Origin: Acidobacteriota bacterium
GTDB lineage: Bacteria; Acidobacteriota; Vicinamibacteria; Marinacidobacterales; Marinacidobacteraceae
Assembly (NCBI GenBank): GCA_009835985.1
Contig: VXWI01000038.1
Coordinates: 1 to 64,000, forward strand
Direction of reading: 5' to 3'
DNA: 64,000 nucleotides
A program made the translations under genes and the position numbers. How positions within the stretch are numbered: position 1 is the stretch's first letter; each line of letters opens with the position of its first letter. Positions 3,742 to 34,682 of this stretch are shown piece by piece. Under the pieces are notes generated by a model. The model was not told the DNA's origin, searched no databases, and worked only from the letters and a program-made list of their open reading frames with translations.

Positions 3742-4950
3742 TCACGCAGAATGCGTTCCGCGTTCCGACGAGCTGGTCTGGAACAACTCGGACACGAGAG
3801 ACGCCATCAGCGCTGCAGCAACCCTTGTACGGGATTCCCCCAACCGGACGACCGCGCGCGCCGCCTTGACAGTCTCCGTGTACCGGTGCTGAAGGGTGAG
3901 CGGCGGAAGCGGAATCCTGACACGTCCGAGGAGGTCGATGCTGATGTTGTAGTTGCCTGCGGTAGTTCGTGTCAGCCGTAACAAGATCTGCCGCATTGTC
4001 GGTAGCGCGAGTGCGGCAGAGACGTATTCCGGATAAACCGGCTCACTCCTCCTAAACCGCGCTCGGATCAGGTAGGACGCGTACGCGGCGTCTCGGTACT
4101 CGGAGAATACGGCGCAACGACCGATGTACTCGGGGTTGCCGTTAGTACGCACGAACAGAATGTCACCACGCGCCAGTTTCAGCTTCTCGCGTTCGTCTCC
4201 AAGGAGCGTGATGAATTTGAGATTGGTCCAATTCACGCCGCCGTGGAGGACATTTGGAATGCGCAGGACGGGAAGAGCGTCTTCGCTATCGGGCCGGTCG
4301 AAACACTTGCGAGAGGTTCCGTAGCGAAATTCCTGCACGAGATCCGCCAGTGGGCGGACTTCCCACCCCATCGGGTTCTCAACCGGATCGCCAAACATCC
4401 GGACGAACAGCGCCGGCACGAACTCGCGCAATCGGTCGGCGGCTCGCCGGCGCAGCGCCTGGATTCGCGCAGCCCGGTTCAGGATGTCCACGATCCGCCG
4501 CTGTTCGTCTAGTGGCGGGAGCGGCGCGGGCATGGACATGAGCGCCTTCATGTCGGCACGGGGCATCCGCGATCCGGTGACTGAGGACATGGCGAACGCG
4601 ACGGTCTCCCTGCGCCGAAGCAGGTACGCCAGAAAACCGCGATCGACGCCGGGCCGTGGGAGCAACGGGACCAGCTCCGTCGAGCACCTGCCGGCGAACT
4701 CAGGCGTAGCTACCTTGTTCAGGTACGGGCGGAGCTTGGCGTAGAGCACATGGCGGTCGTCGAAGCGAAACGACGTGCTCTTCCCCTCGCCGACGCGGGA
4801 GCGAGTGTCGAGGTTCACGGCACCGGTACCAGAAGCGACGTTCTCGACGCCCAAAAGCGGCAGGCGCGCCGCGTCGGGGTCGTCCGGTCGAAGTCCTCGG
4901 CGATCTAAGTCGCAGAGCTCGGCGAGTGGCACGATTCGCGGGCTCATCAC
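3742..4950 (-). CDS. hsdS: Type I restriction-modification system specificity subunit S
   Basis: Two target-recognition-like halves with LPPLDEQRRIVDIL and LPPLTLQHRY repeats; overlaps hsdM by 4 bp. Confidence 0.88.
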   Translation of the reverse strand: MMSPRIVPLAELCDLDRRGLRPDDPDAARLPLLGVENVASGTGAVNLDTRSRVGEGKSTSFRFDDRHVLYAKLRPYLNKVATPEFAGRCSTELVPLLPRPGVDRGFLAYLLRRRETVAFAMSSVTGSRMPRADMKALMSMPAPLPPLDEQRRIVDILNRAARIQALRRRAADRLREFVPALFVRMFGDPVENPMGWEVRPLADLVQEFRYGTSRKCFDRPDSEDALPVLRIPNVLHGGVNWTNLKFITLLGDEREKLKLARGDILFVRTNGNPEYIGRCAVFSEYRDAAYASYLIRARFRRSEPVYPEYVSAALALPTMRQILLRLTRTTAGNYNISIDLLGRVRIPLPPLTLQHRYTETVKAARAVVRLGESRTRVAAALMASLVSELFQTSSSERGTHSA

Positions 4951-6575
4951 TCGACTGCCTCCTGAACGGCGGCGGCCAAGTCGTCGATCTCGCTGAGGAT
5001 CTCGTTCTCGATGGCCTTCAGGTCGTCGAGGATCTCTAGCGGGTCACGATGGTCCACCTGCGTCCGACCCTGCGGTCGGTACCTCCCGGCGCTTAGGTTG
5101 AAGTCGGCCTCACGGATGGCGTCCGCCCCGGCGAACCACCACTTCTCGGTCCAGTCCGTCTCCGGGTCGCGTTGGCTCCAAGCCGTCTGTCGCACCTGAC
5201 AATGCCGGAAAGCCGTCACGAGACTGGGGAGGTCGTCGTCGTCGATCGGGGTGTCGTGGTTGGCGTCCAGTTTGAAGCCGTCGTTGTCGGCATGCAGGAA
5301 CATCACCCGCTCAGTGGCCCCACCCTTGCGAAACACCAGTACGGACGTCTTGACACCCGAATACGGGTTGAACGCGCCGGCGGGCAGCGACAGCACTGCT
5401 TCGACGCGGTTGTTCTCGATGAGCCTGCGGCGCAACTCTCGATGGGCGCCAGTTGAGCCGAACAGGACGCCCTCGGGCACCACGACGCCGCACCGACCGC
5501 CGTCCTTCAAGTGGTTCAGCATGTACTGCAGGAACAGCAGTTCCGTCTGCCGCGTCCTTCCAACCCTCACGTCCTCGACGATCCGGTCCGTGTCCACCCG
5601 CCCTGAGAACGGCGGATTGGCGAGCACGATGTCGAAGCCCTGCACCGGTAGCCTAAGCTCCGCCTTCGTCGCCCGGTCCAGCGAGCGGGTCAGAGCGTCC
5701 CGTCGAAGGATGCGCACCCTGTCCAGCCCACGCAGGGACAGGTTCATTGTGGCGAGTCGGACCATCCGCGGGTCCACCTCGTTGCCGAACAGCGTCGCCT
5801 CGTGCAACTGCCGCACAGCGGCGCGGCTCATTGTGTCGCCGAGCCCGCGCCGAATTGTCTTGCCGTCCACCTCGATCTCCTCGATGCCAGCGTCCGAGGA
5901 GTTCGTGAGCCGGATGTGGTCGTAAGCACCGACCAGGAACCCCGCCGTTCCTGCTGCCGGGTCGTGGACCGTCTCGCCGAGCCTGGGATCGACAAGCTGG
6001 ACCATGGTGCGGATGACGTGGCGGGGTGTGCGGAACTGCCCCAACTCGCCCGCCTGCCGGATCTGCCGCAACACGTGCTCGAACAGATCGCCCTTGGTGT
6101 CGGCGTCCACCAGTTCAAGATGTAGATCATTGACGTGGCTGACGACCTGGGAGAGCACGGTCGGCTCGTCGATCACGAGCCGTGCATCCGCCATGAAGTC
6201 GGTGACTCCCCCGGCGGCGATCCCAGCGTGGAACGGGAAGACTTCCTCTCGTACCCACGACACGAGTCTCTGACCGTTCAGTGCGTTCGCCCAGTCGGAC
6301 CAGCGCAGCGTCTCGCGCGGGACCGATGCCGATCCGGGCTCGCGAGCGTTGCGCGGATTCCGCAGCGTCCATTCGCCAGCGAACGCGCCAGGATACGGGT
6401 TCGCACCGGGCCGCTGGGCCGCCCGAACCCGTGCCGCGTCCGCCGCCTCGAACATATAGAAGTAGATGAGGAAGCTCAGCTGCTCGGCGTTCTGGGCCGG
6501 ATCTGGGTAGCCCCCGGCGAACAGGTAGTCGCGAATCCGGTCGATGGCGCGCCGGAGTTCCGGTGTCAGAGGCAT
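4947..6575 (-). CDS. hsdM: Type I restriction-modification system N6-adenine methyltransferase subunit M
   Basis: DPAAGTAGFLVGAY (motif I), DIVLANPPFSG (NPPF motif IV), GQFRTPRHVIRTMVQLVDP; ATG taken at 6575. Confidence 0.92.
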   Translation of the reverse strand: MPLTPELRRAIDRIRDYLFAGGYPDPAQNAEQLSFLIYFYMFEAADAARVRAAQRPGANPYPGAFAGEWTLRNPRNAREPGSASVPRETLRWSDWANALNGQRLVSWVREEVFPFHAGIAAGGVTDFMADARLVIDEPTVLSQVVSHVNDLHLELVDADTKGDLFEHVLRQIRQAGELGQFRTPRHVIRTMVQLVDPRLGETVHDPAAGTAGFLVGAYDHIRLTNSSDAGIEEIEVDGKTIRRGLGDTMSRAAVRQLHEATLFGNEVDPRMVRLATMNLSLRGLDRVRILRRDALTRSLDRATKAELRLPVQGFDIVLANPPFSGRVDTDRIVEDVRVGRTRQTELLFLQYMLNHLKDGGRCGVVVPEGVLFGSTGAHRELRRRLIENNRVEAVLSLPAGAFNPYSGVKTSVLVFRKGGATERVMFLHADNDGFKLDANHDTPIDDDDLPSLVTAFRHCQVRQTAWSQRDPETDWTEKWWFAGADAIREADFNLSAGRYRPQGRTQVDHRDPLEILDDLKAIENEILSEIDDLAAAVQEAVE

Positions 6576-6585
6576 GGCGGAAGAG

Positions 6586-8727
6586 TCACGGCGCGGTCCG
6601 GTCGTCGTCCCTCTCGGAGTCGGACACGCCGGCCTGCCCAAACACGGCCGCGTTGAAGCTGGCGATCAGGTGGTCGAGAGCCGACTGCCCTCCGAAGACC
6701 CGCCGCGCCTGGTCGTAACCGCCAAGCCCGGTGAAGGGGTGCTCATCGAAGTCGTAGTCGCCGAACGCGTCCATATGCATCGCGTCGGCCCGGATCCGGC
6801 TTCCGATCAAGCTGGCCCAGCGCTCCTGCTCTGCGTCGAGGTTCTGGCCGCCGCGCCATGCCTCGAAGCGCAAACCAACCTCGGCCGCGCGGGTGTCGTG
6901 CTCAGCAGTTCGGACGATCCGGCCATGCTCGTCCAGTGTCAGCCAGTCGCGACTCGCGGGATCGATCTGATCGTCAACGTTGAGCGTCAGCAGCATGCGC
7001 GGCTCGAGGCGCGCGGGTGCCGTCTGTGCCAGAACTTCTCCGCCGCTTCCGATGTCGTCATCGTCGTCGCCGTGGAACTCCGTCACGCCCACGAAATCGA
7101 AGATCGTGAAGTGGGTCTTGCCGATGTGCGGAGCCTTCCGGGTGCCGCGCCCGCGCATCTGCCGGTAGAGGATGGCGCTTGCCGTGAACCGCGCCATGAC
7201 CAGACTGACCACCTCGGGGCAGTCGAAGCCGGTATCGAGCATGTTGACGCTCACCAGGATCTTGGGGAACTCCTCCTCCTTGAACCGCTTGATGATGGCG
7301 CTCGCGTCCGGGGCCGGGCCGCCGCCGATATCGCTGACCACGAAGTCTGCATAGCGCGTCGAGGGTTGCGGCTTCAGGTCGGCGAAGTGCTCGTCGAACA
7401 TTGCCGCAAGCGTCTCGGCATGGCGCTTCGTTACCGCGAACACGATGGTCTTTCCCCGCGTCGGCCGTTGTCGCATTCCGTCCTTTCCCGTGAACCCCTT
7501 CTCGTGGGCATCGCGGAACTCCCGTACGATTGCCCGGTTGCGTTCCGGGATGGTGAACGCCCGCTCCAGCGCCCGCGGATCCACGATGATGGGGTCGGAC
7601 TGTTCGAACAGCTTCTCGAATTCGACCCGCGCCGCCGAGTCCATCGCCGTCCAGTCGAGGTCCCGGCGTGCCACCTCGAACCCCTCCTCGGCGGCAGTCT
7701 TGACCGTCATCGCCTTGTAGATGCGGTACGGGACCAGGTGTCCCTCGTCGATCGCCTCGCGAAGGGTGTACCGGAAGGTCGGCTCCACGAGTTCGAAGAA
7801 CCGCAGCGTGTCACGGACGAAGCGGCCGTCCTCGGTGTCCGGTAGCAGGTCGGCCTCGGCCCTGCATGGTGTCGCGGTCAGGCCGAGTTGGACGGCGTCG
7901 AAGTGCCGGAGTGTCCCGCTCCATTTCCCGTAGATCGAGCGGTGGCACTCGTCCGTGATCACAAGGTCGAAGTAGCCCGACGACAGATCGCGGTAATCGG
8001 TGATCATTGTCTGCAACGTCGCGATCGTGATCCGCTTTGTCCGGTCGAAACCCCGGCCCGGTCGGAGCACGTGGCAGGGGTAGTCACGCAGATGGTCGTT
8101 GAAGGCGTCCTCGGCTTGTCCGGCAAGGGCGATGCGGTCCACGAGAAAGAGGACCCGAGTCACGATGCCCGCCTCGAACAGTCTCTTGACGAACGCCGCC
8201 GCCATCCGGGTTTTGCCGGTGCCGGTCGCCATCTCCACGAGCAGCTTGCGCCGACCACGCGAAACCTCGGCAGTCAACGCCTCGATGCAGGCGATCTGGT
8301 AATCACGATCCACGATCCGCCGATCGATCTCGACACTGGACAGGTCCAGCCGATTCCTGCGGGCAGCAATCCGCCGCTCCAGGTCGTCCGGGGCGTAGAA
8401 GGTGGCGATCTTGCGGGCGTGAGCGTCGGTCTCGCGGTCCAGGAACCAGACCTCTTCCCCGTTCGACAAGAACACGAACGGCACGCCGAGCTGCTTGGCG
8501 TAGTGGCGCCCCTGACCCTGCGCCGCGATGGGGTTGACCCTGGCACCCTTGGCTTCGATCACCGCAACGGGCCGACCGGCACGGTCGCACAGTGCATAGT
8601 CAGCCCGCGAACCGTCTGGGAGCGTGTGCTCAAAGAGGACGCTTACGCCGTCGGTGAGATTCCAACTCGCATCCTCAAGGAGCGCATCGATCTTGACGCG
8701 GGAGAAGGCTTCGGTCGTTCGGCTCAT
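6586..8727 (-). CDS. hsdR: Type I restriction endonuclease subunit R (HsdR_N nuclease + DEAD/DEAH helicase)
   Basis: DYALCDRAGRPVAVIEAKG (nuclease), EMATGTGKTRMAAA (Walker A), DECHRS (DEAH-like box), MRGRGTRKAP (motif VI). Confidence 0.9.
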   Translation of the reverse strand: MSRTTEAFSRVKIDALLEDASWNLTDGVSVLFEHTLPDGSRADYALCDRAGRPVAVIEAKGARVNPIAAQGQGRHYAKQLGVPFVFLSNGEEVWFLDRETDAHARKIATFYAPDDLERRIAARRNRLDLSSVEIDRRIVDRDYQIACIEALTAEVSRGRRKLLVEMATGTGKTRMAAAFVKRLFEAGIVTRVLFLVDRIALAGQAEDAFNDHLRDYPCHVLRPGRGFDRTKRITIATLQTMITDYRDLSSGYFDLVITDECHRSIYGKWSGTLRHFDAVQLGLTATPCRAEADLLPDTEDGRFVRDTLRFFELVEPTFRYTLREAIDEGHLVPYRIYKAMTVKTAAEEGFEVARRDLDWTAMDSAARVEFEKLFEQSDPIIVDPRALERAFTIPERNRAIVREFRDAHEKGFTGKDGMRQRPTRGKTIVFAVTKRHAETLAAMFDEHFADLKPQPSTRYADFVVSDIGGGPAPDASAIIKRFKEEEFPKILVSVNMLDTGFDCPEVVSLVMARFTASAILYRQMRGRGTRKAPHIGKTHFTIFDFVGVTEFHGDDDDDIGSGGEVLAQTAPARLEPRMLLTLNVDDQIDPASRDWLTLDEHGRIVRTAEHDTRAAEVGLRFEAWRGGQNLDAEQERWASLIGSRIRADAMHMDAFGDYDFDEHPFTGLGGYDQARRVFGGQSALDHLIASFNAAVFGQAGVSDSERDDDRTAP

Positions 8728-10500: not shown

Positions 10501-11370
10501 GTGATTCCACCGTCTTTCGACTATCACGCTCCCGACAACCTGGAAGAGGCGAGCCGGCTGCTGCTGGCGAACCCGGAGGCCAAGCTGCTGGCCGGGGGAC
10601 ACAGTCTCATCCCCATGATGCGGTTCCGGCTGGCGGAGCCGGCCGCGCTGGTGGACCTCCGCAAGATTCCCGGGCTCTCCGGGATCCGCGAAGAGGGCGG
10701 TTCCCTGTGCATCGGGGCGATGACCCGCGAGTCCGAACTCGAGAAGTCGGACCTCGTGCAGAGCCGGTACCCGTTGCTCGCGGACACCACCCGCGTCATC
10801 GCCGATCCGGTGGTGCGGAACCTGGCGACGGTCGGCGGCAACGTCGCCCACGCCGATCCGGGCAACGACCACCCGGCCGCGATGCTCGCCTACCGCGCGT
10901 CGTTCGTCGCGTGCGGTCCTTCCGGCGAGCGGACGATTGCCGCGTCCGACTTCTTCACCGGGCCCTTCTCGACCTGCCTGGAAGCCGGCGAGATCCTCAC
11001 CGAGATCCGCATTCCGGCGTCCGGGGCCGGTTCAGGCGGCGCCTACCAGAAGTTCGAGCGGAAGGTCGGCGACTACGCGGTCGCCGCGGTCGCCGTCCAG
11101 TTGCAACTCGACGGCGGGCAGGTCGCCGGCGCCGGAGTGGCGCTCACCAACGTGGGCCTCACCGCGATCCAGGCCGGGGCCGCCGAGGCGGCGCTCGTCG
11201 GCTCGGACGGCGGTGATGCCGCGCTCGACGCCGCGGCCGAAGCCGCCGCGGCGGCGGCCGATCCGGGCGACGATCACCGGGGGTCCGCCGACTACAAGCG
11301 CGCGGTGGTCCGCGTGCTCACCCATCGGGCGGCGGCCAGCGCGCTCGCCCGGGCGAGGGAGGCGTCATGA
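10501..11370 (+). CDS. coxM: Aerobic carbon monoxide dehydrogenase medium (FAD) subunit, form I cluster
   Basis: GTG start after [27 protein letters not shown] and [21 protein letters not shown]-binding motifs; M-S-L order. Confidence 0.88.
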
Positions 11371-11849
11371 GTTCCCACCAGATCAGCGTCACCATCAACG
11401 GTGAGGAACACACCCGCGAGGTGGAAGCCCGGCTGCTGCTCGTGCACTTCATCCGCGAGGAACTCGACCTCACCGGCACCCACATCGGGTGCGACACGAC
11501 CTCCTGCGGCGCCTGCACGGTGCTCCTGAACGGCGTGCCCGCCAAGAGCTGCACGGTCTTCGCCGTGGCGGCCGACGGCGCCGAGGTCACGACCGTGGAG
11601 GGGCTCGGCAACGGCGGTCTCCATCCGGTCCAGCAGGGATTCACGGAGAAACACGGACTCCAGTGCGGCTTCTGCACTCCGGGGATGATGATGACCTCCA
11701 AGGCGCTCCTGGAAGAGAACCCGGATCCGTCCGAAGAGGAGATCCGCTGGGGCATCTCCGGCAACCTGTGCCGGTGCACCGGCTACGTGAACATCGTACG
11801 AGCGGTGCAGCGGGCCAGCGAACTGATGAAGGAGAACAGCGATGGCTGA
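11367..11849 (+). CDS. coxS: CO dehydrogenase small (2x[2Fe-2S]) subunit
   Basis: [16 protein letters not shown] and [11 protein letters not shown]...GNLCRCTGY cysteine motifs; 4-bp overlap with coxM. Confidence 0.93.
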
Positions 11850-14187
11850 GTGCAGAGGACTCGGACACTCCGTCCAGAGAAAAGAAGACGCCCGCTTCAT
11901 CAGGGGCCAGGGCCGCTACATCGACGACATCAAGCTGCCCGGGATGCTCTACCTGGACATCGCCCGGAGCCCGTACGCCCACGCCAAGATCACCAAGATC
12001 CACGAGGACACCGCGATGGCGGTGGACGGCGTGGCGGCGGTAATCACCGGGAAGACCCTCGAGGGATTCAAGCTCGCCTGGATGCCGACCCTGATGAGCG
12101 ACCAGCAGATGGTGCTGCCGGTGGACACCGTCAAGTACCAGGCGCAGGAAGTGGCGGCGATCGTGGCAACGTCGCGCTACGCAGCCGCCGACGGCGCCGC
12201 CGCCCTTGAGGTGGACTACGACCCGCTGCCCGTGGTGGTGGATCCGCACGAGGCGCTAAAGCCCGGGGCGACCAAGGTCCGGGACGACAAGGAGAGCAAT
12301 CACATCTTCCACTGGGAGCACGGGGACGCCGACGGGACGGAGGCAGCGCTCGCCGGCTGCGACACCGTCGTCGAGCAGAAGATGCACCTTCCGCGCATCC
12401 ATGTGGCTTCGATCGAGACCTGCGGCTGCGTGGCGAGCTGGAACCCGGTGGAGGGCCACCTCACCCTCTACCTGACCACCCAGGCGCCGCACGCGATCCG
12501 CACCGTGGTGGCCCTCGTGACCGCCCATCTCGGCCTCGCCGAGCACAAGATCCGGGTGATCTCGCCCGACATCGGCGGGGGATTCGGGGGCAAGGTGCCG
12601 GTCTATCCCGGCTACGTGCTCGCGACGGCCGCGTCGGTGGTCACCGGCAAGCCGGTGAAGTGGATCGAGGACCGTTCGGAGAACCTCCAGGCGGACTCGT
12701 TCGCCCGCGACTACCACATCACCGCCAGGCTCGGGTCGAAGGACGGGAAGGTGACGGCGCTCAAGCTGGACACCGTCGCCGACCACGGCTATTCGGACGC
12801 GGCGGCGAACCCGTCCAAGTTCCCGGCGGGGCTCTACCACATCGCCACCGGGTCCTACGACCTGGAGAACGCGCACGTATCGGTGGACGGCGTCTACACG
12901 AACAAGCCGCCGGGCGGGATCGCCTACCGGTGCTCGTTCCGCGTCACCGAGGCGGTGCACGCCATCGAGCGCATGGTGGACCTCCTGGCCCGCGAGAACG
13001 GGGAGGACCCGGCGGACTTCCGCCTCCGGAACTTCATCAAGCCCGAGCAGTTCCCGTATCAGTCGGCGCTCGGCTGGGAGTACGACAGCGGCGACTACGG
13101 TGCGGCGCTCGAAAAGGCCATGGACATGATCGGCTACCAGGATCTGCGGGCCGAGCAGGCCGAAAAGCGCGCCCGCGGCGAGCTGATGGGCATCGGGATC
13201 TCCTCGTTCACCGAGATCGTGGGCGCCGGGCCGTCGAAGACCTTCGACATCCTTGGCATCAAGATGTTCGACTCGGCCGAGATCCGCATCCATCCCACCG
13301 GGAAGGCGATCGCCCGCTTCGGCACCAAGTCCCAGGGGCAGGGACACGAGACCACCTACGCGCAGATCATCGCGGAAGAACTCGGCATCCCGCCCGAGGA
13401 CATCCAGGTCGAGGAGGGGGATACGGATACCGCACCCTACGGGCTCGGAACCTACGCGAGCCGGTCCACTCCGACCGCCGGCGCCGCGGCGTCCATCGCG
13501 TCGCGGAAGATCCGGGAGAAAGGCAGAAAGATCGCTGCCCACCTCCTCGAGGCGGACGAAGCGGACCTCGTCTGGGAGCAGGGGAAGTTCTACGTGAAGG
13601 GCTCCCCGGACCGGGCGAAGACCATCCAGGACATCGCGTTCGCGGCCTACACGAACCACCCGCAGGGCCTGGAGGCGGGCCTCGAGGCGATCTCCTACTA
13701 CGACCCGCCCAACCTGACCTTCCCGTTCGGGTCCTACATCTGCTGCGTGGACATCGACCGGGGCACCGGCCAGGTCAAGATCCGGCGCTTCGTGGCGGTG
13801 GACGACTGCGGCGTGCGGATCAACCCGATGATCGTGGACGGCCAGATCCACGGCGGGCTCACCATGGGCATCGCCCCGGCGCTGCTCGAGGAGATCTCCT
13901 ACGACGCGGACGGCAACATCACTGGGGGCAACCTCATGGAGTACCTCGTTCCCACCGCGATGGAGACGCCGCACTGGGAGCTCGGCGAGACGGTCACCCC
14001 GTCGCCGCATCACCCGATCGGCGCCAAGGGGGTTGGCGAGTCCGCGACCGTGGGCGCCCCCCCGGCCGTCGTGAACGCGGTGGTGGACGCCCTCTGGCAC
14101 CTCGGGGTGCGTCACATGGAGATTCCCATGACTCCGGCGCGCGTCTGGGACGTCCTCAACGAACACGGCGCCGCGGCGACGCGCTAG
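11842..14187 (+). CDS. coxL: Form I CO dehydrogenase large (Mo/Cu) subunit
   Basis: Active-site motif AYRCSFR at 12922-12942; [38 protein letters not shown]; no frameshift over 781 aa. Confidence 0.93.
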
Positions 14188-14209: not shown

Positions 14210-15169
14210 ATGACCGGCCCGACGGACGTCTTCGCCGCGGCCGCGCGCCTCTACCGGGACGGGGTTCCCTTCGTCCTGGCAACGGTCGTGCGCGCTGAAC
14301 GTCCGACGTCCGCCCGCCCCGGCGCCAAGGCGATCGTCACCGGCGACGGACAGTTTCGGGGTTTCGTCGGCGGGACCTGCGTCAAACCTGCGGTCCGGCG
14401 CGAGTCGCTGCGCGCGCTCGCCGACGGAGCGCCCCGGCTGCTCCGCATCTCCCCCGACAGCCCGCCCGAGGGCGTCGAGGCGGAAGAGGGAGTTCTGGAG
14501 GAACACATGGCCTGCGTCAGTGGCGGCGCTCTCGACATCCACCTGGAGCCGTACCTGCCCTCGCGGCGTCTGCTGCTGGCGGGGCGTTCGCCCATCGTTG
14601 AATCCCTGGCGGCGCTCGGCGAGGCGCTCGGGATGGAGGTTCGGACTGCCGAGACCGAGGAAGACCTCGACACCGCGGCCGAGGGGGCCTTCGTGGTCGT
14701 CGCCGGTCATGGAGAAGGCGAGTGGGGGGCGCTGAAGGCCGCGTTGACGGGCGGCCGCGCCCGCTATGCGGGCCTGGTCGCGAGTCCGCGGCGGGCGGCG
14801 GCGGTGCGCGAGCGGCTCGTCGGGATGGGTGTCGCCGAAGCCGACATCGGCCGGCTCCGGTCTCCGGCTGGGCTCGACATCGGGGCCGAGACCCCCGGTG
14901 AGATTGCGCTCAGCATCCTCGCCCAGATCGTGGAGGAGCGGCGCGCGGCGGAACCGCCCGAGGCCGCTGCGGAGGAGCCGGCAGCGCCCGCCGTCGGCAT
15001 CTCGCTCGACGTTCCAGACGACGACGTGGCGGTGGACCCCATCTGCGGGATGAGCGTCTCCCGGGACTCTCCGCACCGGGTGGAATCGGGCGGCGAAACC
15101 TGGTGGTTCTGCTGCGCCGGCTGCGCGGAGACGTTCGCTACCGCCGCGCAGGCCGCTGATTCCGCCTGA
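14210..15169 (+). CDS. XdhC/CoxI-type Mo-cofactor maturation protein with C-terminal YHS-like metal-binding domain
   Basis: XdhC body (ARYAGLVASPRRAAAVRERL, GLDIGAETPGEIALSILAQIVEER) followed by DPICGMSVSRDSPHRVESGGETWWFCCAGCAETFA. Confidence 0.85.
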   Translation: MTGPTDVFAAAARLYRDGVPFVLATVVRAERPTSARPGAKAIVTGDGQFRGFVGGTCVKPAVRRESLRALADGAPRLLRISPDSPPEGVEAEEGVLEEHMACVSGGALDIHLEPYLPSRRLLLAGRSPIVESLAALGEALGMEVRTAETEEDLDTAAEGAFVVVAGHGEGEWGALKAALTGGRARYAGLVASPRRAAAVRERLVGMGVAEADIGRLRSPAGLDIGAETPGEIALSILAQIVEERRAAEPPEAAAEEPAAPAVGISLDVPDDDVAVDPICGMSVSRDSPHRVESGGETWWFCCAGCAETFATAAQAADSA

Positions 15170-15215
15170 TTTGCGCCCTGACCGGGCGCCGCCGCCCCGC
15201 AGGAGGGCCGAAACG

Positions 15216-16388
15216 ATGAAGTCTCGCCGCACGTTGTGCGCCGCCGTGATGATCTCCTCGATCGCCGCCGGCGCTCCCGCCCAGACCCCAACCCGCGCCC
15301 GGGACCTGGGGGTGCCCTTCGAGGGCCATCCGGGTCCGCTGAACGCCATCACCGACGTTTCCGGACTGGAGGTGGGACACACCACGATCCTGCGGGAGGA
15401 GGGACCGGTCCGGACCGGGGTCACCGCGGTGTTGCCGCGCGGGCGGATGAGCCAGGCCGGGGTGTTCGCCAACTGGTTCGCCCTGAACGGGAACGGCGAG
15501 ATGACCGGCACGACCTGGGTCAGCGACCGGGGAATCCTGAAGGGGCCGGTGCTCATCACGAACACCTACAGCGTCGGCGCGGTCCACGAGGCGGCGATCG
15601 CCTGGGCCGAGGCGAATCTCGGTTTTCGCGCGTGGACGCTGCCGATGGTCGCCGAGACCTGGGACGGATTCCTGAACGACATCACCGGCTTCCACGTCCG
15701 CCGCGAGCACGTGTTCGCCGCGCTCGACTCCGCCCGCGGCGGACCGGTCGAGGAGGGCTCGGTGGGAGGCGGTACCGGGATGCGCACCTTCGAGTTCAAG
15801 TCGGGAATCGGCACCGCCTCGCGCCGTGTCGGGACCGGTGGAACGGACTACACGGTGGGCGTCCTGGTTCAGTCCAACTTCGGCCGGCGTCCGCAGCTCC
15901 GCATCGCCGGAGTGCCGGTAGGGCGGGAGATCCCGGACCTGCTTCCGGAGAACCCGCCGCCCTCGGAATCCGGTCCCCCCGTCCCGAGGGGAGGACGGGA
16001 CGGATCCATCATCATCGTCGCGGCCACCGATGCGCCGCTGCTCCCGCACCAGTTGAAGCGGGTTGCCCGCCGGGCATCCCTGGGACTCGGACGCCTCGGG
16101 AGCATCTCGATGAATGGCTCCGGAGACATCTTCGTCGCGTTTTCGACCGCCAACGGGGAGGCCGTCGCCAACGAGAGCGGCGAGGCTCGCTTGCGGATGC
16201 TGGCGAACTCCGATCTGAACCCGCTCTTCGAAGGGGTCGTGCAGGCCACCGAGGAGGCCATCGTGAACTCCATGGTCGCGGCCCGCGACATGAGTGGCGT
16301 GAACGGCCGCCGGATCTACGCGATCCCGCACGAACGCCTCCGGGAGATCCTCCGCCGCCATGACCGGCTGCTGGTGGTACCGGACTGA
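15216..16388 (+). CDS. P1 family peptidase (DmpA/BapA-like aminopeptidase), exported
   Basis: Signal peptide; NAITDVSGLEVGHTTI, GSVGGGTGM, GDIFVAFSTAN motifs. Confidence 0.87.
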   Translation: MKSRRTLCAAVMISSIAAGAPAQTPTRARDLGVPFEGHPGPLNAITDVSGLEVGHTTILREEGPVRTGVTAVLPRGRMSQAGVFANWFALNGNGEMTGTTWVSDRGILKGPVLITNTYSVGAVHEAAIAWAEANLGFRAWTLPMVAETWDGFLNDITGFHVRREHVFAALDSARGGPVEEGSVGGGTGMRTFEFKSGIGTASRRVGTGGTDYTVGVLVQSNFGRRPQLRIAGVPVGREIPDLLPENPPPSESGPPVPRGGRDGSIIIVAATDAPLLPHQLKRVARRASLGLGRLGSISMNGSGDIFVAFSTANGEAVANESGEARLRMLANSDLNPLFEGVVQATEEAIVNSMVAARDMSGVNGRRIYAIPHERLREILRRHDRLLVVPD

Positions 16389-20174: not shown

Positions 20175-20507
20175 ATGTCCCGCAGTCACAAGGTTCAGGT
20201 CACGCTGGACGAGGTTGAGTACGCCGCGATCCGGCGCCGCGCCGAAGCGGAGGGCCTGAAGCACGCCGCCGTCGTCCGCGAAGCGATTCAGGAGTACTGC
20301 GTCAAGCCCGACAGGCGCCGGCGCCAGCAGGAGGCGCTGGAGGCGCTTCGCAACATGCCGCCGGCGCCCGTGCCCGAGTCCTGGTCGGAGTGGAAGCGCG
20401 AGTACAGCCGTCTCAAGACGAAGTTCCTACCGACGGATCCGCCCGACCTGAGGGACACCCGGGCGGCCGGATCCTCTCACCCTTCCGAATCCGATGATGA
20501 CCGCTGA
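20175..20507 (+). CDS. Ribbon-helix-helix (CopG-like) antitoxin
   Basis: VQVTLDEVEYAAIRRRAEAEGLKHAAVVREAIQEY, RHH fold pattern; overlaps a PIN-domain gene. Confidence 0.75.
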   Translation: MSRSHKVQVTLDEVEYAAIRRRAEAEGLKHAAVVREAIQEYCVKPDRRRRQQEALEALRNMPPAPVPESWSEWKREYSRLKTKFLPTDPPDLRDTRAAGSSHPSESDDDR

Positions 20508-20928
20508 CAACGCGATCTTTCTGGATACGAACATCTTCATGTACACGGCGGGGAAAGATCCGGATTGGCGCGCCATCTGCGACCTGGCCGTCCAGGAGTC
20601 GCTGGTTCGTAACCTGATGCTCGTCACCAACGCCGAAGTGCTGCAGGAGATCCTGCACCGATACTTCTCGCAGCGTCGCCCCGGCGATGCGCAGCTTGTT
20701 CATGACGCGGCGGTGGATCTCTGCGTGGAGATCATTCCGGTCACGGCGAACCACACGGCGCGGGCTTTGGAGATTCTCCTGGAGCACCCGCAGCTCTCCA
20801 GTCGCGACGCGGTTCACGTCGCAACGATGGAGGCGCGCAGAGTCCGCAAGATGCTCTCGGTGGACACCGATTTCGACCCGGTGCCCAGCGTGGATCGCAT
20901 CGACCCCCGGGATTTCGTCAGAGCGTAG
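20494..20928 (+). CDS. PIN domain toxin (VapC-like)
   Basis: IFLDTNIFMYTAG...NAEVLQEILHRY...LSSRDAVHVATMEARRVRKMLSVDTDFDPV, acidic PIN residues. Confidence 0.88.
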   Translation: MMTADNAIFLDTNIFMYTAGKDPDWRAICDLAVQESLVRNLMLVTNAEVLQEILHRYFSQRRPGDAQLVHDAAVDLCVEIIPVTANHTARALEILLEHPQLSSRDAVHVATMEARRVRKMLSVDTDFDPVPSVDRIDPRDFVRA

Positions 20929-20979: not shown

Positions 20980-21420
20980 ATGGACATCCAAGGGACCGAG
21001 ATCATCAGCGCCCCCCGGGAAAAGGTCTGGGAATTCGTCACCGACGCGGAGTCGGTGGCTTCCTGCACCCCCGGGGTGAAGTCGGTCCGCATCCTCGAGC
21101 CCGGCAGGCGCTTCGAGGTGGTGGGCGGAATCAAGCTCGGCACCGTCGGGCTCAACGCCAAGAACGTCATCGAGTTCACCGATCTCGTCGAGCTCGAAGA
21201 GGCCCGGATGAAGATCCGGGGCCGGGGACCCGGCACCACCATTGATGCCGTCGCGGAACTCCGGTTGCGCGACGAGGAATCGGGTACCGCGCTCGACTGG
21301 AAGGGCACGGTGCAGGTGCGGGGAACGCTGGCGGCGCTGGCTTCCCGGCTGCTGAAGCCGGTCACCGAGAAGGTGTTGCGCGAGATGTTCGCCGAGATGA
21401 GATCCAAGATCGAGGCCTGA
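20980..21420 (+). CDS. coxG: CoxG-type SRPBCC family protein
   Basis: GTEIISAPREKVWEFVTDAESVASCTPGVKSVRIL...FEVVGGIKLGTVG, CoxG-like. Confidence 0.87.
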   Translation: MDIQGTEIISAPREKVWEFVTDAESVASCTPGVKSVRILEPGRRFEVVGGIKLGTVGLNAKNVIEFTDLVELEEARMKIRGRGPGTTIDAVAELRLRDEESGTALDWKGTVQVRGTLAALASRLLKPVTEKVLREMFAEMRSKIEA

Positions 21421-27743: not shown

Positions 27744-28214
27744 ATGAGACACCGTGTTTGCCTCAGCGTCAACGGAAAGGCCGAGGAGTTCGACGTGGAA
27801 CCCCGGCTTCTCCTCTGCCACCTGTTGCGCGCATATGTCGGCCTGACCGGAACGAACATCGGCTGCGACACGTCGCAGTGCGGATCCTGCACCGTGCTGA
27901 TGGACGGCAAGGCGGTGAAGTCCTGCACGGTGCTCGCGGTGCAGGCCGACGGCTGTGAGGTGACGACCATCGAGGGTCTCGCCGGCGCCGACGGACTCCA
28001 CCCGGTACAGCAGTCCTTCTGGGATCACCACGGCCTGCAGTGCGGTTTCTGCACCCCGGGCATGATCATGACCGCGGTGGAGATCCTGGACCGGAATCCC
28101 GACGCCGGCGACGCCGAAGTGCGGCACGGCCTCGAAGGCAACATTTGCCGCTGTACCGGCTACGAGAACATCGTGAAGTCGATCGTGGCCGCCGGCGCCG
28201 GCGGGACGAGCTGA
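27744..28214 (+). CDS. (2Fe-2S)-binding small subunit of Mo hydroxylase (form II cluster)
   Basis: [16 protein letters not shown] and [11 protein letters not shown]...GNICRCTGY. Confidence 0.93.
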
Positions 28215-28257
28215 GCGGAACCCGCACCCTTCAAAGAGGATCGGTAGGAGGAGAGCA

Positions 28258-30618
28258 ATGGGCCGTTACGTAGGCACTTCGGTCAAGCGGGTGGAAGACC
28301 CCCGCTTCATCCAGGGCAAGGGCCGCTACGTCGCCAACATCCAGTTCCCGGACATGGTGTACGTGGCCATCAAGCGCAGTCCCGAGGCGCACGCCCGGAT
28401 CACCAGGATGGACACGTCCGCCGCGGCCGCCATGGACGGGGTCGTGGCCGTGTTCACCGGCCAGGACTTCAAGGACGGCGGGTGCGGCTCGCTCCCCTGC
28501 GGCTGGCTGGTGCCCGACACCAAGGTTCCGGACCGGCCCATCGTCGTGACCGACCGGGTCTGCCACGTCGGGGACTCGGTAGCGGTGGTGGCCGCCCGGA
28601 CTCCCTACATCGCGGCCGATGCCGTCGAGGCGATCGAGGTGGACTACGAGCCTCTCCCGACCGTGGTGGACGCGCGCGGCGCCATGGACGACGGAGCACC
28701 GCTGGTCCATGCCGAGATCGAGGACAACGCCTCCTACCACTGGGCGCTCGGGGACCAGGAGGCCTGCGAGAAGGCGTTCGCCGAGGCGGACGAGGTCGTC
28801 GAGATCGAGCTCGTGAACCAGCGCCTCATCCCCACGGCGATGGAGCCGCGCGCCGCGGCGGCGCAGTGGGATGCGGCTTCCGAGGAGATGACGGTCTGGA
28901 CCACCAGCCAGAACCCGCACCCGATCCGGCTGCTGCTCTCCGCCTTCACGCTCGGGATTCCCGAGAGCAAGCTGCGGGTGATTTCCCCCGACGTGGGCGG
29001 CGGCTTCGGCAGCAAGATCTTCCACTACCCCGAGGAAGTCATCGTGCCGTGGGTGGCGCGCCAGGTCGGACGGCCTGCCCGCTGGGTGGCCACGCGCACC
29101 GAGAGCCAGATGACCGATTCCCAGGGGCGCGACCACGTCACCGTCGCCAGGCTCGCCATGACCAGCGACGGCACCTTCACCGGGCTCGACGTGGAGACTT
29201 GGGCGAACCAGGGGGCCTACCTCTCGACTTTCGCCCCGCTCATCCCCACGGCGCTCTACATCACGCTGCTCTCGGGGAACTACAAGATGCCCGGAGTGTT
29301 CGGCAAGGTGCACGGCACGCTCACGAACACGGTGCCGGTGGACGCCTACCGGGGCGCCGGCAGGCCGGAGGCGGCCTACCTCGTCGAACGCCTCGTGGAC
29401 CTGGCCGCCACCCGGCTGGGCCGGGATCCGCTCGACCTGCGGCGCCAGAACGCGATTCCCAAGGAGGACTTCCCCTACCAGACCCCCGTCGCGTTCCTCT
29501 ACGACAGCGGCGACTACGACCGGCTGATGGCGACCGCCGCCGATCGCGCCGACTACGCCGGCATGCGCGCCGCGCAGGCCGAGGCGCGCGGCGAGGGCAA
29601 GCTGCGCGGCGTCGGGGTCGTGTGCTGCATCGAAGCCAGCGGCCCGGCCCCTTCAGCGGTCGCCGGCTCGCTCGGCTCGGCGGTGGGCTTTTGGGAGAGC
29701 GGAGAGATTCGCGTCCATCCCACCGGGCAGGTGAGCGTCTTCACCGGGTCCCACTCGCACGGCCAGGGGCACGAGACCACTCTCGCTCAGGTGGCTGCCG
29801 ACGAGCTCGGCGTGCCGATCGAAAGCGTGGAAGTCGTTCACGGCGACACGGGACGCATCAACTTCGGCATGGGCACCTACGGGAGCCGGAGCGCCTGCGT
29901 CGGCGGTTCCGCGCTCGTCCGAAGCGCCGAAAAGGTGCGCGCCAAGGTGCTCAAGCTCGGGGCCCACCTGCTCGAGGCGGCGGAAGAGGACGTTGTGTAC
30001 GACCGGGAGGCCGGCCGGGTCCACGTAAAGGGCTCTCCGGACCGGGGGAAGGACTTCGGCGAGCTGGCATTCGCGGCGTACACGGCGCACAACATGCCGG
30101 AAGGCATGGAACCCGGGCTCAACGTCGTGAGCTTCTACGATCCGGCGAACTTCACCTTCCCGGCGAGTTCACACATCTGCGAAGTCGATGTCTGCCCCGA
30201 CACGTGGGAGGTGCGGATCCTCCGTTACGTGGCGGTGGACGACGTGGGCAAGGTGATCAACCCGATGATCGTGGAGGGCCAGATCCAGGGCGGCGTCGTC
30301 CAGGGCGTGGGCCAGGCGCTTACCGAGATCGGCTCCTACTCGGACGACGGCCAGCTCCTCTCGGGAACCCTGCTGGAGTACGCGGTGCCGCGGGCCGATC
30401 TCCTTCCGGGGATCGAGGTGGACCGCATCGAGACCCCATCTCCGCACAACCCGCTGGGAGTCAAGGGCGCCGGAGAGATGGGCACCATCGCGGCCACCCC
30501 GGCGGTGGCGAACGCGGTACTCGACGCGTTGGCTCCGTTGGGAGTCAGCCACATTGAGCTTCCGCTCACCCCGGAGAGGATCTGGCGGGCCGTCCAGGCG
30601 GCCGGCAACGGCGCCTGA
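28258..30618 (+). CDS. Xanthine dehydrogenase family molybdopterin-binding (large) subunit, form II CoxL-like
   Basis: VDAYRGAGRPEAAYLVERLVD (form II AYRGAGR); VGGGFGSK, GQGHETTLAQVAADELG, NPLGVKGAGEMG. Confidence 0.93.
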   Translation: MGRYVGTSVKRVEDPRFIQGKGRYVANIQFPDMVYVAIKRSPEAHARITRMDTSAAAAMDGVVAVFTGQDFKDGGCGSLPCGWLVPDTKVPDRPIVVTDRVCHVGDSVAVVAARTPYIAADAVEAIEVDYEPLPTVVDARGAMDDGAPLVHAEIEDNASYHWALGDQEACEKAFAEADEVVEIELVNQRLIPTAMEPRAAAAQWDAASEEMTVWTTSQNPHPIRLLLSAFTLGIPESKLRVISPDVGGGFGSKIFHYPEEVIVPWVARQVGRPARWVATRTESQMTDSQGRDHVTVARLAMTSDGTFTGLDVETWANQGAYLSTFAPLIPTALYITLLSGNYKMPGVFGKVHGTLTNTVPVDAYRGAGRPEAAYLVERLVDLAATRLGRDPLDLRRQNAIPKEDFPYQTPVAFLYDSGDYDRLMATAADRADYAGMRAAQAEARGEGKLRGVGVVCCIEASGPAPSAVAGSLGSAVGFWESGEIRVHPTGQVSVFTGSHSHGQGHETTLAQVAADELGVPIESVEVVHGDTGRINFGMGTYGSRSACVGGSALVRSAEKVRAKVLKLGAHLLEAAEEDVVYDREAGRVHVKGSPDRGKDFGELAFAAYTAHNMPEGMEPGLNVVSFYDPANFTFPASSHICEVDVCPDTWEVRILRYVAVDDVGKVINPMIVEGQIQGGVVQGVGQALTEIGSYSDDGQLLSGTLLEYAVPRADLLPGIEVDRIETPSPHNPLGVKGAGEMGTIAATPAVANAVLDALAPLGVSHIELPLTPERIWRAVQAAGNGA

Positions 30619-30630
30619 GAGGAGATTCCG

Positions 30631-31485
30631 ATGTTTCCAAGCCAATTCGACTACCACCGCGCCGCTTCGGTCGCCGAGGCGGTGGAGCTGCTTTCCTCGC
30701 TTCCGGACGCCAAGCTGGTCGCCGGCGGGCACAGCCTGATTCCGGCGATGAAGCTGCGCGCCGCGCAGCCGGCCGCCCTCGTGGACATCGGGCGGATTCC
30801 CGGGTTGTCCGGCATCTCGGCTGACGGGGACAGCCTCGTCATCGGCGCGCTCGCCACCCACGCCGCGGTAGCCGATTCGGCGGCGGTCCAGGGGGGGTGC
30901 CCGATGCTGGCCGAGACGGCCGCCGCCATCGGGGACATCCAGGTCCGGAACCGGGGGACGATCGGGGGCAGCCTGGCCCACGCCGATCCGGGGGCCGACT
31001 ATCCCGCCGCAATGCTGGCGCTCGGCGCCGAGGTCACCGCGGTGGGAGCCGGCGGCGAGCGGACGATCGCCGCTTCCGACTTCTTCGTGGACATCCTGAC
31101 CACCGCCCTCGCCGACAACGAGGTCATCACCTCGGTCCGGGTTCCCGGCGCCGCCGGCAGCGCCTACCTGAAGCACCGCCATCCGGCCTCCAGCTACGCC
31201 GTGGTGGGCGTGGCCGCCTGCGTCGGGATGGACGGCGGCAACGTCGCGAGCTGCTCGATCGGCATCAACGGGGTCACCGGCAAGGCGGTGACCGCCGACG
31301 CGGCCGCCGCCGCGCTCTGCGGCGGCCCGGCCAGCGCGGACCGGATCGCGGCCGCCGCGGCATACGTCGGGGAAGCCTTCGACGAGCCGCTCGGCGACCT
31401 CTACGCCTCCGGAGAGTTCCGGGCCCATCTCGCCGGCGTCTACACGAAACGCGCGCTTGCTCTCGCGGCCGAACGCGCCGGATAG
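30631..31485 (+). CDS. FAD-binding medium subunit of Mo hydroxylase
   Basis: [56 protein letters not shown]. Confidence 0.92.
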   Translation: MFPSQFDYHRAASVAEAVELLSSLPDAKLVAGGHSLIPAMKLRAAQPAALVDIGRIPGLSGISADGDSLVIGALATHAAVADSAAVQGGCPMLAETAAAIGDIQVRNRGTIGGSLAHADPGADYPAAMLALGAEVTAVGAGGERTIAASDFFVDILTTALADNEVITSVRVPGAAGSAYLKHRHPASSYAVVGVAACVGMDGGNVASCSIGINGVTGKAVTADAAAAALCGGPASADRIAAAAAYVGEAFDEPLGDLYASGEFRAHLAGVYTKRALALAAERAG

Positions 31486-32410
31486 AGCAGCCAGGCGGTT
31501 GTCAGCAACCCAGACGGCGACCCTCGCTTCGGTCCCCGAACTCACCGGGGAACTCGCGGGGCAGGGGTATATCGCCGACGGCGCGCTGGCCACGGCGCTC
31601 TTCCTCGCCCTGCGCCTCGAACGACCCCTCTTCCTCGAGGGCGAGGCGGGCGTCGGGAAGACCGAACTCGCCAAGGTGACGGCGGCGGTTCTCGGTGCGC
31701 CCCTGATCCGGCTCCAGTGCTACGAGGGGCTCGACATCGCCCAGGCAGCCTACGAGTGGAACTACACCCGGCAGATGCTGGCCATCCGCCTGGCCGAGAG
31801 CCGGGGGAGCGCCATGGAACAGCAGGACCTGTTCGGTGCGGACTTCCTCCTGCGCCGCCCCCTGCTGCACGCCATCGAAACCTCGTCGCCGGAAGGCCGT
31901 CCGGTGTTGCTCATCGACGAGGTGGACCGCAGCGACGAGGAGTTCGAGGCTTATCTGCTCGAGGTCCTCTCGGACTTCCAGATCACGATTCCCGAGATCG
32001 GCACCGTTCGCGCGGAGGCGCCGCCGGTCGTCGTCCTGACTTCGAACCGGACCCGGGAAGTCCACGACGCCCTCAAGCGGCGTTGCCTCTACCACTGGAT
32101 TCCCTATCCCAGCTACGAACGCGAACTCGAGATCGTCCGCGAGCGGGTGCCCCAGGCGGCGGCTCGACTGGCGGCGGAGGCCACCCGCTTCGCGCAGGAG
32201 CTGCGCGACCTGGATCTCTTCAAGCGTCCGGGGGTGTCCGAGACCCTGGATTGGACGATGGCGCTGGCCTCGCTGGGGAAGACCGCCCTTGACGAGGCGG
32301 CGGTGGACCGGACGCTGGGAGCGCTTCTCAAGTACCGGGACGACCTCGAGATGGTCCGCGGCGAACGGGCGGGGGCCATCCTCACCCGGCTGACCGCCGG
32401 AGTCTCTTGA
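31457..32410 (+). CDS. coxD: MoxR-type AAA+ ATPase, CoxD-like (start uncertain, TTG 31457 or TTG 31499)
   Basis: EGEAGVGKTELAK Walker A, VLLIDEVDRSDEEFEAYLLEVLSDF Walker B; next to coxE. Confidence 0.88.
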   Translation: MLSRPNAPDRAARRLSATQTATLASVPELTGELAGQGYIADGALATALFLALRLERPLFLEGEAGVGKTELAKVTAAVLGAPLIRLQCYEGLDIAQAAYEWNYTRQMLAIRLAESRGSAMEQQDLFGADFLLRRPLLHAIETSSPEGRPVLLIDEVDRSDEEFEAYLLEVLSDFQITIPEIGTVRAEAPPVVVLTSNRTREVHDALKRRCLYHWIPYPSYERELEIVRERVPQAAARLAAEATRFAQELRDLDLFKRPGVSETLDWTMALASLGKTALDEAAVDRTLGALLKYRDDLEMVRGERAGAILTRLTAGVS

Positions 32411-33663
32411 ACGCCGCGGCCTCGGGCCCCCAACCGGGACGCGGCGCGGCGCTTCCGCCGCTGCTCCAGAACCTCACGCTCTTCGGTCGCCTGCTGCGGG
32501 GGATCGGGCTCCCGGTCTCGACGGCCCGGATGCTCGACCTGGCGCAGGCGCTCCCGCTGATCGAGGTGTTCCGGCGCGAGGAGTTCCATGCCGCCGCGCG
32601 GGCGCTCCTCATCCACCGGCGCGAAGACCTCGAACTCTTCGACGCGGCCTTCGCGCTCTTCTGGGAGACGCCGCCCGAACGCTGGACCCGCACCAGGCTT
32701 CCCGGGATGATGCTCCGGAAGCAGCGCTCCCCGGTCAGGCAGGCAACCTTCCGGCCGGTCGCCCCCGGTACGGATGCCGGCCCGGATCAGCAGCCGCACC
32801 ATCCGTTCGCCCGGCGCACCTGGAGCGACCGCGAGTCCCTCGAGCACCGGGACTTCTCGGACCTTGACGAGGACGAACTGCGGGAGGTCCGCAGCCTGAT
32901 CCGGGATGCCGGATGGAAAGCGGCCCGCCGGCGGGTGGTGCGTTTCCGGCCCGGCGGCAACCGGAACCTGGATCTGCGCCGGACGCTGCGGATGGGGCTC
33001 CGGTCGGGCGGCGAGTGGGTGCGCCTCGAACGGCGGCGCCGCCGGGAGAAACCACGGCCGCTCATCGTGCTCGCCGACGTGAGCGGATCCATGGAGCAGA
33101 CGGCCCGCGTGCTGCTCCATTTCCTCTACGGGCTCTCGCACGGGTCGCCCGGGCGGGTCGAGGCTTTCGTCTTCGCGACCCGGCTCACCCGGATCACCCG
33201 CAAGCTCGCCGACCGGCGGGTGGACCGCGCCCTCCGGGAAGCCTCGGAGGCGGTACGTGACTGGTCGGGCGGGACCCGCATCGGCGAGGCGCTCCACCGG
33301 TTCAACCTGGAATGGGCGCGCCGGCTGCCCACCTCCGCCGCGGTGGTGCTCCTCGTGAGCGACGGCTGGGACCGCGGCGATCCGGCGCTGGTGGCCTCGG
33401 AAATGGAGCGGCTCCGGGGGCTGGCGTGGCGGGTGGTCTGGCTGAACCCGCTGCTGTCCGACGAGGACTACGAGCCACTGACCCGGGGGATGGTCGCGGC
33501 GCTTCCCCACATCCACGACTTCCTTCCGGTGAACAACCTGGCGAGCGTGCGCTCGCTGGCGGAGCACCTCGCGCAGCTGGATCCGGTGGGGCGTTCCGCT
33601 GTCCCGCGTCTCAGGACCTGGCAGCGGGCGCTGGCCGCGGTACCGCCGCCAGCCGCACGATAA
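32407..33663 (+). CDS. coxE: VWA domain protein, CoxE-like
   Basis: PLIVLADVSGSMEQTARVLLHFLYGL, RVEAFVFATRLTRITR; TTGA overlap with the upstream gene. Confidence 0.88.
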   Translation: MNAAASGPQPGRGAALPPLLQNLTLFGRLLRGIGLPVSTARMLDLAQALPLIEVFRREEFHAAARALLIHRREDLELFDAAFALFWETPPERWTRTRLPGMMLRKQRSPVRQATFRPVAPGTDAGPDQQPHHPFARRTWSDRESLEHRDFSDLDEDELREVRSLIRDAGWKAARRRVVRFRPGGNRNLDLRRTLRMGLRSGGEWVRLERRRRREKPRPLIVLADVSGSMEQTARVLLHFLYGLSHGSPGRVEAFVFATRLTRITRKLADRRVDRALREASEAVRDWSGGTRIGEALHRFNLEWARRLPTSAAVVLLVSDGWDRGDPALVASEMERLRGLAWRVVWLNPLLSDEDYEPLTRGMVAALPHIHDFLPVNNLASVRSLAEHLAQLDPVGRSAVPRLRTWQRALAAVPPPAAR

Positions 33664-33677
33664 TCCGCCTCGGCCCA

Positions 33678-34682
33678 ATGCGCGACATCGCTCCCGTTCT
33701 GGATTCCTGGCTCGAAGGGGAGGGCCCCCTCGCGCTGTCCACGGTGGTTCACACCTGGGGTTCGGGACCGAGGCGCCCCGGCGCCCGCATGACAATCGAC
33801 CGTGAAGGCCGGATCGCCGGCTCGGTGAGCGGGGGCTGCGTGGAGTCGAGCGTGGTCGAAGCGGCGCGCGAGGTCATCGGGACCGGGGAGCCGCGCCTCC
33901 TCCGCTTCGCGGTTTCCGACGAACTCGCGTGGGGAGTGGGTCTCGCCTGCGGCGGGTCGCTCACGGTGTTCGTCGAACGGGCCGACCGGGAGTTGCTGGC
34001 TCAGGTCCGCGAGGGGATGAAACGCCGGGACGCGGTGGGACTCGCGGTCGTGACCTCCGGGCCGAACCTCGGTGAGAGCCTGGTCAAGGTCGCCGGGTCG
34101 CCGGGAACCGGGTCCCCGGCGCTGGCCGACGTCGCCGACGCGGCCCTCGCCGCGGGGAAACCGCTGGCGACCGATACGGAACGCGGGTCCGTCTTCTGTG
34201 ACGTCATCCTCCCGTCCGAAACGCTGGTCATCGTGGGCGGCGTCCACATCGCGCAGACGCTCTGCGGTCTCGCGGCCCGGGTCGGCTACCGTCCGGTGAT
34301 CTGCGATCCACGCCCGGTGTTCGCCTCCCCCGAGCGATTTCCCGGGGTGGAGATCGTGAATGAGTGGCCGGAGGAGGGCTTCCAGCGGATCGGCCTCGAC
34401 GCGGGTACCGCGGTCGCCACCCTGACGCACGACCCGAAGCTGGACGACCCGGCGCTCGCGCTGGCTCTCGAGAGTTCCGCCTTCTACGTGGGGGCGCTCG
34501 GCAGCCGCAAGACACACGCGCGGCGCCTCGACCGGCTCAAGGAGCGCGGTGTCTCCGAGGACGCGCTCGCCCGGATCGCGGCGCCCATCGGACTTCCGAT
34601 CGGGGCGCGGACGCCGGACCAGATCGCCCTCGCGGTGATGGCCCAGGTGGTGGCGGCGAGGAACGGCGTTTCGGCGGGATGA
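33678..34682 (+). CDS. XdhC/CoxF-family maturation protein
   Basis: RIAGSVSGGCVESSVVEAAREVI and YVGALGSRKTHARRLDRLKERGV...PIGLPIGARTPDQIALAVMAQVVA. Confidence 0.92.
   Translation: MRDIAPVLDSWLEGEGPLALSTVVHTWGSGPRRPGARMTIDREGRIAGSVSGGCVESSVVEAAREVIGTGEPRLLRFAVSDELAWGVGLACGGSLTVFVERADRELLAQVREGMKRRDAVGLAVVTSGPNLGESLVKVAGSPGTGSPALADVADAALAAGKPLATDTERGSVFCDVILPSETLVIVGGVHIAQTLCGLAARVGYRPVICDPRPVFASPERFPGVEIVNEWPEEGFQRIGLDAGTAVATLTHDPKLDDPALALALESSAFYVGALGSRKTHARRLDRLKERGVSEDALARIAAPIGLPIGARTPDQIALAVMAQVVAARNGVSAG

Follow-up and report, generated by a model that had tools for sequence, protein, structure and literature searches.

A CoxF homologue with a C-terminal YHS domain accompanies form I CO dehydrogenase genes in a Marinacidobacteraceae genome

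In the 64 kb stretch of acidobacteriotal DNA analysed here (the window), the coxM-coxS-coxL genes of what is almost certainly a form I Mo-Cu CO dehydrogenase are followed directly by a gene for a CoxF homologue that ends in a YHS domain. CoxF proteins with this fusion and with conserved metal-site cysteines occur in several phyla and are confined to form I partners, and in Rhodothermia an HMA domain stands at the same place. The locus as a whole is probably explained by a form I enzyme, copper delivery through the YHS tail of CoxF, and coxD and coxE functions drawn from a form II operon nearby. The coordinates of the genes and motifs concerned are given in Table 1.

Table 1. The two cox operons of the window, the genes associated with them and the evidence for each assignment
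Feature	Position	Strand	Evidence
coxM, FAD subunit, form I CO dehydrogenase	10501–11370	+	Pfam FAD_binding_5 176.7 bits, CO_deh_flav_C 72.1 bits
coxS, [2Fe-2S] subunit	11367–11849	+	Pfam Fer2_2 115.8 bits; PDB 1ffu_A, E 1e-61
coxL, Mo-Cu large subunit, form I	11842–14187	+	TIGR02416, form I clade, Foldseek
AYRCSFR active-site motif	12922–12942	+	Cys364 codon 12931–12933, predicted Cu ligand
coxF homologue (XdhC_CoxI, XdhC Rossmann, C-terminal YHS)	14210–15169	+	Pfam XdhC_C 85.9, XdhC_CoxI 70.5, YHS 30.2 bits
YHS domain of CoxF homologue	15032–15139	+	Asp276 and Cys279, Cys301, Cys305
coxG homologue	20980–21420	+	Pfam COXG 95.5 bits, cut-off 22.2
coxS, form II operon	27744–28214	+	
coxL, form II (AYRGAGR)	28258–30618	+	694.6 bits, below form I cut-off
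coxM, form II operon	30631–31485	+	
coxD, MoxR-type AAA+ ATPase, candidate shared sulfuration factor	31499–32410	+	Purpose-built HMM, 445 bits
coxE, VWA protein	32407–33663	+	PF05762 202.4 bits
coxI-type XdhC protein without metal-binding tail	33678–34682	+	CoxI clade in XdhC tree

The CoxF homologue and its C-terminal domain

The coxF homologue starts 22 bases past coxL and encodes 319 residues, the last 45 of which form the YHS domain. The match to the YHS model (PF04945) was marginal in the window protein, falling 0.1 bit under the gathering score of 30.3, and relatives scored 35–58 bits. The equivalents of its three metal-site cysteines were invariant in 33 homologues from several phyla. 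In an AlphaFold2 model, blocks of residues 270–310 had pLDDT values of 80–93, and the linker that precedes them (residues 250–269) was of low confidence. A sequence search for a solved YHS structure found none. Directly 3′ of coxF lies a gene of peptidase family S58 (DmpA-like aminopeptidase; 15207–16388, Pfam 381 bits).

In a phylogenetic analysis, 101 XdhC proteins encoded at cox loci fell on two sides (support 99). One side contained CoxF of Oligotropha carboxidovorans and the window protein encoded behind coxL, and the other contained O. carboxidovorans CoxI and the second XdhC protein of the window, the Oligotropha branches being long and their exact placement less sure. The tails were scored by HMM, by which the variants NPVCGI, DPVCHM and CPTCGM were included; since the HMM detects these variants, a description of the Bacteroidota and some Chloroflexi as lacking YHS was rejected. 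On the CoxF side 61 of the 70 proteins carried YHS and three carried HMA, whilst neither tail was present in any of the 31 proteins on the CoxI side. The HMA cases (CopZ-like, MSCxHC; Pfam 31–44 bits, cut-off 24.8) were CoxF proteins of Rhodothermia (L044, L046 and L054) and were nested among YHS-bearing Bacteroidota proteins, so that one metal-binding fold seems to have been replaced by another in this group. No standalone YHS or HMA genes were found in a search near form I coxL genes.

The association of CoxF-YHS with the form I enzyme was followed at genome scale, with the cut-off of 991.15 bits on TIGR02416 (the NCBI equivalog for the aerobic CO dehydrogenase large subunit) as the form I threshold. 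Form I CoxL exceeded the cut-off in 54 of 251 Chloroflexota genomes. Full-length CoxF-YHS was detected in 50 genomes of this phylum, every one among those 54; of the other four, three carry YHS on inspection (two of them with the loop variant AYACSFR) and one has a contig that ends inside coxF, giving CoxF-YHS in 53 of the 53 testable form I genomes. Form I CoxL was much rarer in the Acidobacteriota (8 of 396 genomes), where CoxF-YHS was found in seven of the eight form I genomes and in two of the 388 others. Both of the latter (G216 and G084) are represented by contig fragments, with coxE adjoining coxF, and nearly 190 further Acidobacteriota genomes encode an XdhC relative in which no full-length match to YHS was detected. 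The CoxF of the eighth form I genome (G067) has no YHS domain and ends in SSCCRDSD. Fisher's test on the uncorrected counts gave 2e-48 for Chloroflexota and 1e-12 for Acidobacteriota, values that are descriptive only given relatedness and operon linkage. The CoxF of Actinomycetota and Pseudomonadota was sampled through plasmids only, and the XdhC matches on plasmids, which came mostly from proteobacteria or haloarchaea, aligned with the XdhC core only, with the exception of Thermomicrobium roseum. Some co-occurrence with form I would be expected of coxF as an operon neighbour, and the informative contrast is that between CoxF and CoxI.

The gene order coxM-S-L-XdhC(YHS) of T. roseum is identical to that of the window (YHS 58.3 bits), although this organism belongs to another phylum and its CoxL is approximately 70 % identical to that of the window. 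The YHS tail of its XdhC is not remarked on in the portion of the published account available to us (PMC6776052). Likewise, the available portion of the study of sponge Acidobacteria by Burgsdorf et al. (PMC8941161) relies on COG/KO annotation and the presence of coxSMLG, and leaves CoxF-YHS and the form II neighbour undescribed. A literature search, from which subscription journals and preprints were outside scope, found nothing that pairs CoxF, XdhC or carbon monoxide dehydrogenase with YHS, and the CoxF-YHS/HMA architecture is provisionally regarded as new.

Copper delivery and its alternatives

In O. carboxidovorans, CoxD first sulfurates Mo, and CoxF then acts together with CoxE to provide the Cu, drawing on a putative Cu-binding motif; the role of CoxF as Cu supplier is based on Oligotropha mutants (PMC4240915). 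A Cu-specific response, probably via Asp178, Cys181, Cys204 and Cys208, has been described for the YHS domain of a Mycobacterium phlei adenylyl cyclase (PMC4626032). Like the window domain, the M. phlei domain is C-terminal, and its Asp and three Cys are spaced almost as in the window protein, but it is fused to an adenylyl cyclase, which Cu turns on, whereas the window domain is carried by an XdhC-type maturation factor. Because CoxF supplies Cu, the M. phlei domain responds to Cu and the same four residues recur, the YHS tail is proposed as a Cu-loading site, from which Cu would be passed to the sulfurated Mo site (Mo-SH) of apo-CoxL. Judging from the sequences, we consider it fairly likely that the window gene product is a CoxF maturation factor whose YHS domain binds Cu and hands it over.

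Counting against this proposal are the CoxF without YHS in Acidobacteriota genome G067 and the CoxF of Deinococcus sp. AJ005 (L127, 5971–7029), whose YHS-like tail (29.1 bits) is missing most of the Cys, with substitutions apparently at the first two metal positions. Oligotropha CoxF also has no YHS domain, so the domain is dispensable for Cu insertion in general, and the tail is an elaboration of CoxF rather than a requirement.

The YHS tail could instead act as a metal sensor or safety device that switches the chaperone activity, or shields the unfinished Mo site, and donates nothing. The sole biochemically studied YHS domain is a Cu-dependent enzyme switch (PMC4626032), and the poorly modelled linker may allow the tail and core to act apart. 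We nevertheless regard a sensor as unlikely: the exchange of YHS for HMA, a domain of copper-chaperone type, in Rhodothermia fits transfer better than it fits one particular switch, and Oligotropha CoxF is reported as a supplier of Cu (PMC4240915). Somewhat less credit is given to a structural Zn, Ni or Fe site with no relation to Cu, the restriction to form I then arising through coxF-coxL linkage only. As generic metal sites built on Cys, YHS/TRASH domains can bind other metals, such as Cd in L24e (according to PMC4626032), and phylogenetic co-inheritance is expected for a gene linked to coxL. Linkage fits poorly, however, with the finding that two unrelated metal-binding folds have been joined to CoxF at an equivalent position and CoxI has neither, even though CoxI genes occur in many of the same clusters. 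Copper loading by the tail remains the preferred reading of the domain.

Maturation genes of the form II operon

The second cox operon of the window (27744–34682) starts 13.5 kb downstream of the form I genes and has the order coxS-coxL(AYRGAGR)-coxM-coxD-coxE-coxI. Its S-L-M arrangement differs from the coxM-coxS-coxL order of form I type, and its CoxL, which shares 44 % identity with the form I protein, carries Gly in place of the Cu-binding Cys. In each of the seven genomes of the genus that possess form I, a single contig holds both coxL genes, separated by approximately 16–22 kb. Between the two operons, approximately 6.8 kb downstream of form I coxL, lies coxG, which occupies the same relative place across the genus. 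Just upstream of coxG (20175–20928) are genes for a ribbon-helix-helix-like small protein and a PIN-domain protein, resembling a VapBC-like toxin–antitoxin pair.

The initial annotation had described the form I genes as a complete operon. It was right about coxM-S-L, all the structural genes being present, but the CoxF homologue is the only maturation gene directly 3′ of them, coxD and coxE are absent alongside, and both the XdhC-YHS gene and the form II operon had been overlooked. In O. carboxidovorans the order M-S-L and a CoxF homologue are likewise found in coxMSLDEFG on plasmid pHCG3, but coxDEF there follow directly, whereas coxD and coxE of the window lie 17–19 kb downstream of form I coxL. 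Only two XdhC_CoxI genes were detected in the host genome, both within the window, and the form II coxE was its only strong VWA_CoxE match (next best 27.8 bits). Because no other strong coxE is present in this 94 %-complete metagenome-assembled genome (MAG), it is reasonable to suppose, with slightly less assurance than for the Cu-binding tail, that the single coxD-coxE pair of the form II operon supplies the sulfuration and CoxE functions for the form I enzyme.

With no coxD or coxE alongside and the sole strong coxE in the form II operon, the form I enzyme might be poorly matured or inactive. This is improbable, as six of seven further genus members sampled have intact form I genes (the seventh, below the form I cut-off, is a 66 %-complete genome), CoxL is 98–99 % conserved, and T. 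roseum likewise keeps its accessory genes in an operon separate from the structural genes (PMC6776052). Sharing of the form II pair is retained as the preferred explanation. A more specific version, in which CoxF is a dedicated Cu metallochaperone, with a fused YHS domain in several phyla and HMA in Rhodothermia, and finishes the host enzyme together with CoxD and CoxE borrowed from the copper-free form II operon, has in our estimate an even chance of being correct.

The form I enzyme, its host and the meaning of the CoxF tail

The form I structural genes are intact and overlapping (coxM/coxS by four bases, coxS/coxL by eight), with no internal stops, and lie on the + strand at 10501–14187 as first annotated. 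The coxM gene has a GTG start with a ribosome-binding-like GGAGGAG just 5′. No sigma-70 promoter-like site was found in a scan, and terminator-like sites were at chance level. Upstream, at 4947–8727 on the − strand, is what looks like a type I restriction–modification pair (N-6 methylase-like, 4947–6641; HsdR-like helicase, 6586–8727). Across the three form I products, Pfam recovered the domains to be expected for FAD, [2Fe-2S] and molybdopterin binding. The best PDB match of CoxM was CutM of CO dehydrogenase (1ffu_C, E 4e-89). All eight cluster Cys of CoxS align with those of O. carboxidovorans CoxS; CO dehydrogenase small subunits matched it at E ~1e-61, and the small subunit of glyceraldehyde oxidoreductase (4zoh_C) matched equally well.

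The large subunit scored 1208.6 bits on TIGR02416. Its nearest solved structures were the three characterised Mo-Cu CO dehydrogenases, those of Hydrogenophaga (1ffu/1ffv), M. smegmatis (8uem) and Oligotropha (1n5w/1zxi), with E values from 0 to ~1e-301, and the next solved relative, quinoline 2-oxidoreductase, was far weaker (E 4e-141). The same three enzymes headed the Foldseek results obtained with a CoxL model whose mean pLDDT was 68 and whose active site was poorly predicted (residues 358–366 and 695–736 below 50), for which reason the geometry of the Cu site forms no part of our claims. A tree built from 73 CoxL-family proteins by a quick method (LG+G4) separated the 45 form I sequences, the window CoxL included, from the rest at a branch of SH-aLRT 100, the placement that the initial annotation had predicted. 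Its positions for the AYRCSFR motif were exact, and residues 723–738 ([16 protein letters not shown]) also agreed.

Alignment with O. carboxidovorans CoxL (59 % identity) matched Cys364, Glu733 and Gln214 of the window protein to Cys388, Glu763 and Gln240. From the 1N5W structure we take Glu763 to be catalytic and Gln240 to be Mo-proximal. The copper cysteine, which had been put forward from the motif, is thus retained at Cys364, in contrast to the Gly of the form II paralogue. Cys388 is the Cu ligand of the Oligotropha enzyme (PMC4240915). CoxL-like proteins act on many substrates (PMC8941161), but it is very improbable that the enzyme is some other xanthine-oxidase-family hydroxylase with a form-I-like motif, in view of the TIGR02416 score far above the cut-off, the fully supported form I clade, the retained Cu-Cys and Glu base, and an architecture like that of the CO-consuming T. 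roseum.

CO is very probably the substrate of the form I enzyme in the host. It would be oxidized to CO2 at a Mo-S-Cu-S-Cys364 cluster of CoxL, from which electrons would reach the respiratory chain by way of the [2Fe-2S] clusters in CoxS and the FAD in CoxM. The host genome encodes the haem-copper cytochrome oxidase subunit COX1, so a route to O2 exists. By analogy, T. roseum is the nearest functional precedent, cultures of which consume CO to sub-atmospheric levels (PMC6776052). The sole match to the RuBisCO large-subunit family in the host genome (G000:C50:8475–9206) was weak (64 bits) and is more likely to be RuBisCO-like.

Among 60 relatives, the form I cut-off was passed only within the family, by the window genome, six of seven further members of its genus and two other genomes. 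CoxL matches at 92–99 % identity came from Acidobacteriota MAGs (one labelled Vicinamibacteraceae), the isolate names of which read as sponge or coral surveys, and the next neighbours were sequences of Chloroflexota and Armatimonadota (76–77 %). The patchy distribution suggests that form I CO dehydrogenase has spread horizontally. One genome of the same order (G010) has a form I locus (L147, contig C95) with both coxL and coxF broken into two open reading frames apiece, through either decay or assembly error. CO dehydrogenase has been found and is expressed in sponge Acidobacteria, including the order Vicinamibacterales (Burgsdorf et al., PMC8941161). The CO dehydrogenase of the window is itself ordinary, the CO oxidation potential of sponge Acidobacteriota being already published, and it adds little.

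Prior evidence on the route of Cu(I) to the buried Mo site of CO dehydrogenase comes from one organism, in which a short, putative motif has been proposed as the place where CoxF holds Cu. The recurrent fusion of CoxF to two types of metal-binding domain, only with Cu-enzyme partners, provides a separate, genomic line of evidence that CoxF donates the Cu. The YHS or HMA tails, with or without the core, are small expressible constructs for testing Cu donation, and the CoxF tail is a second annotation mark of Cu-dependent CO dehydrogenase in MAGs, besides AYxCSFR. The CoxF-YHS/HMA architecture reaches far beyond this locus.
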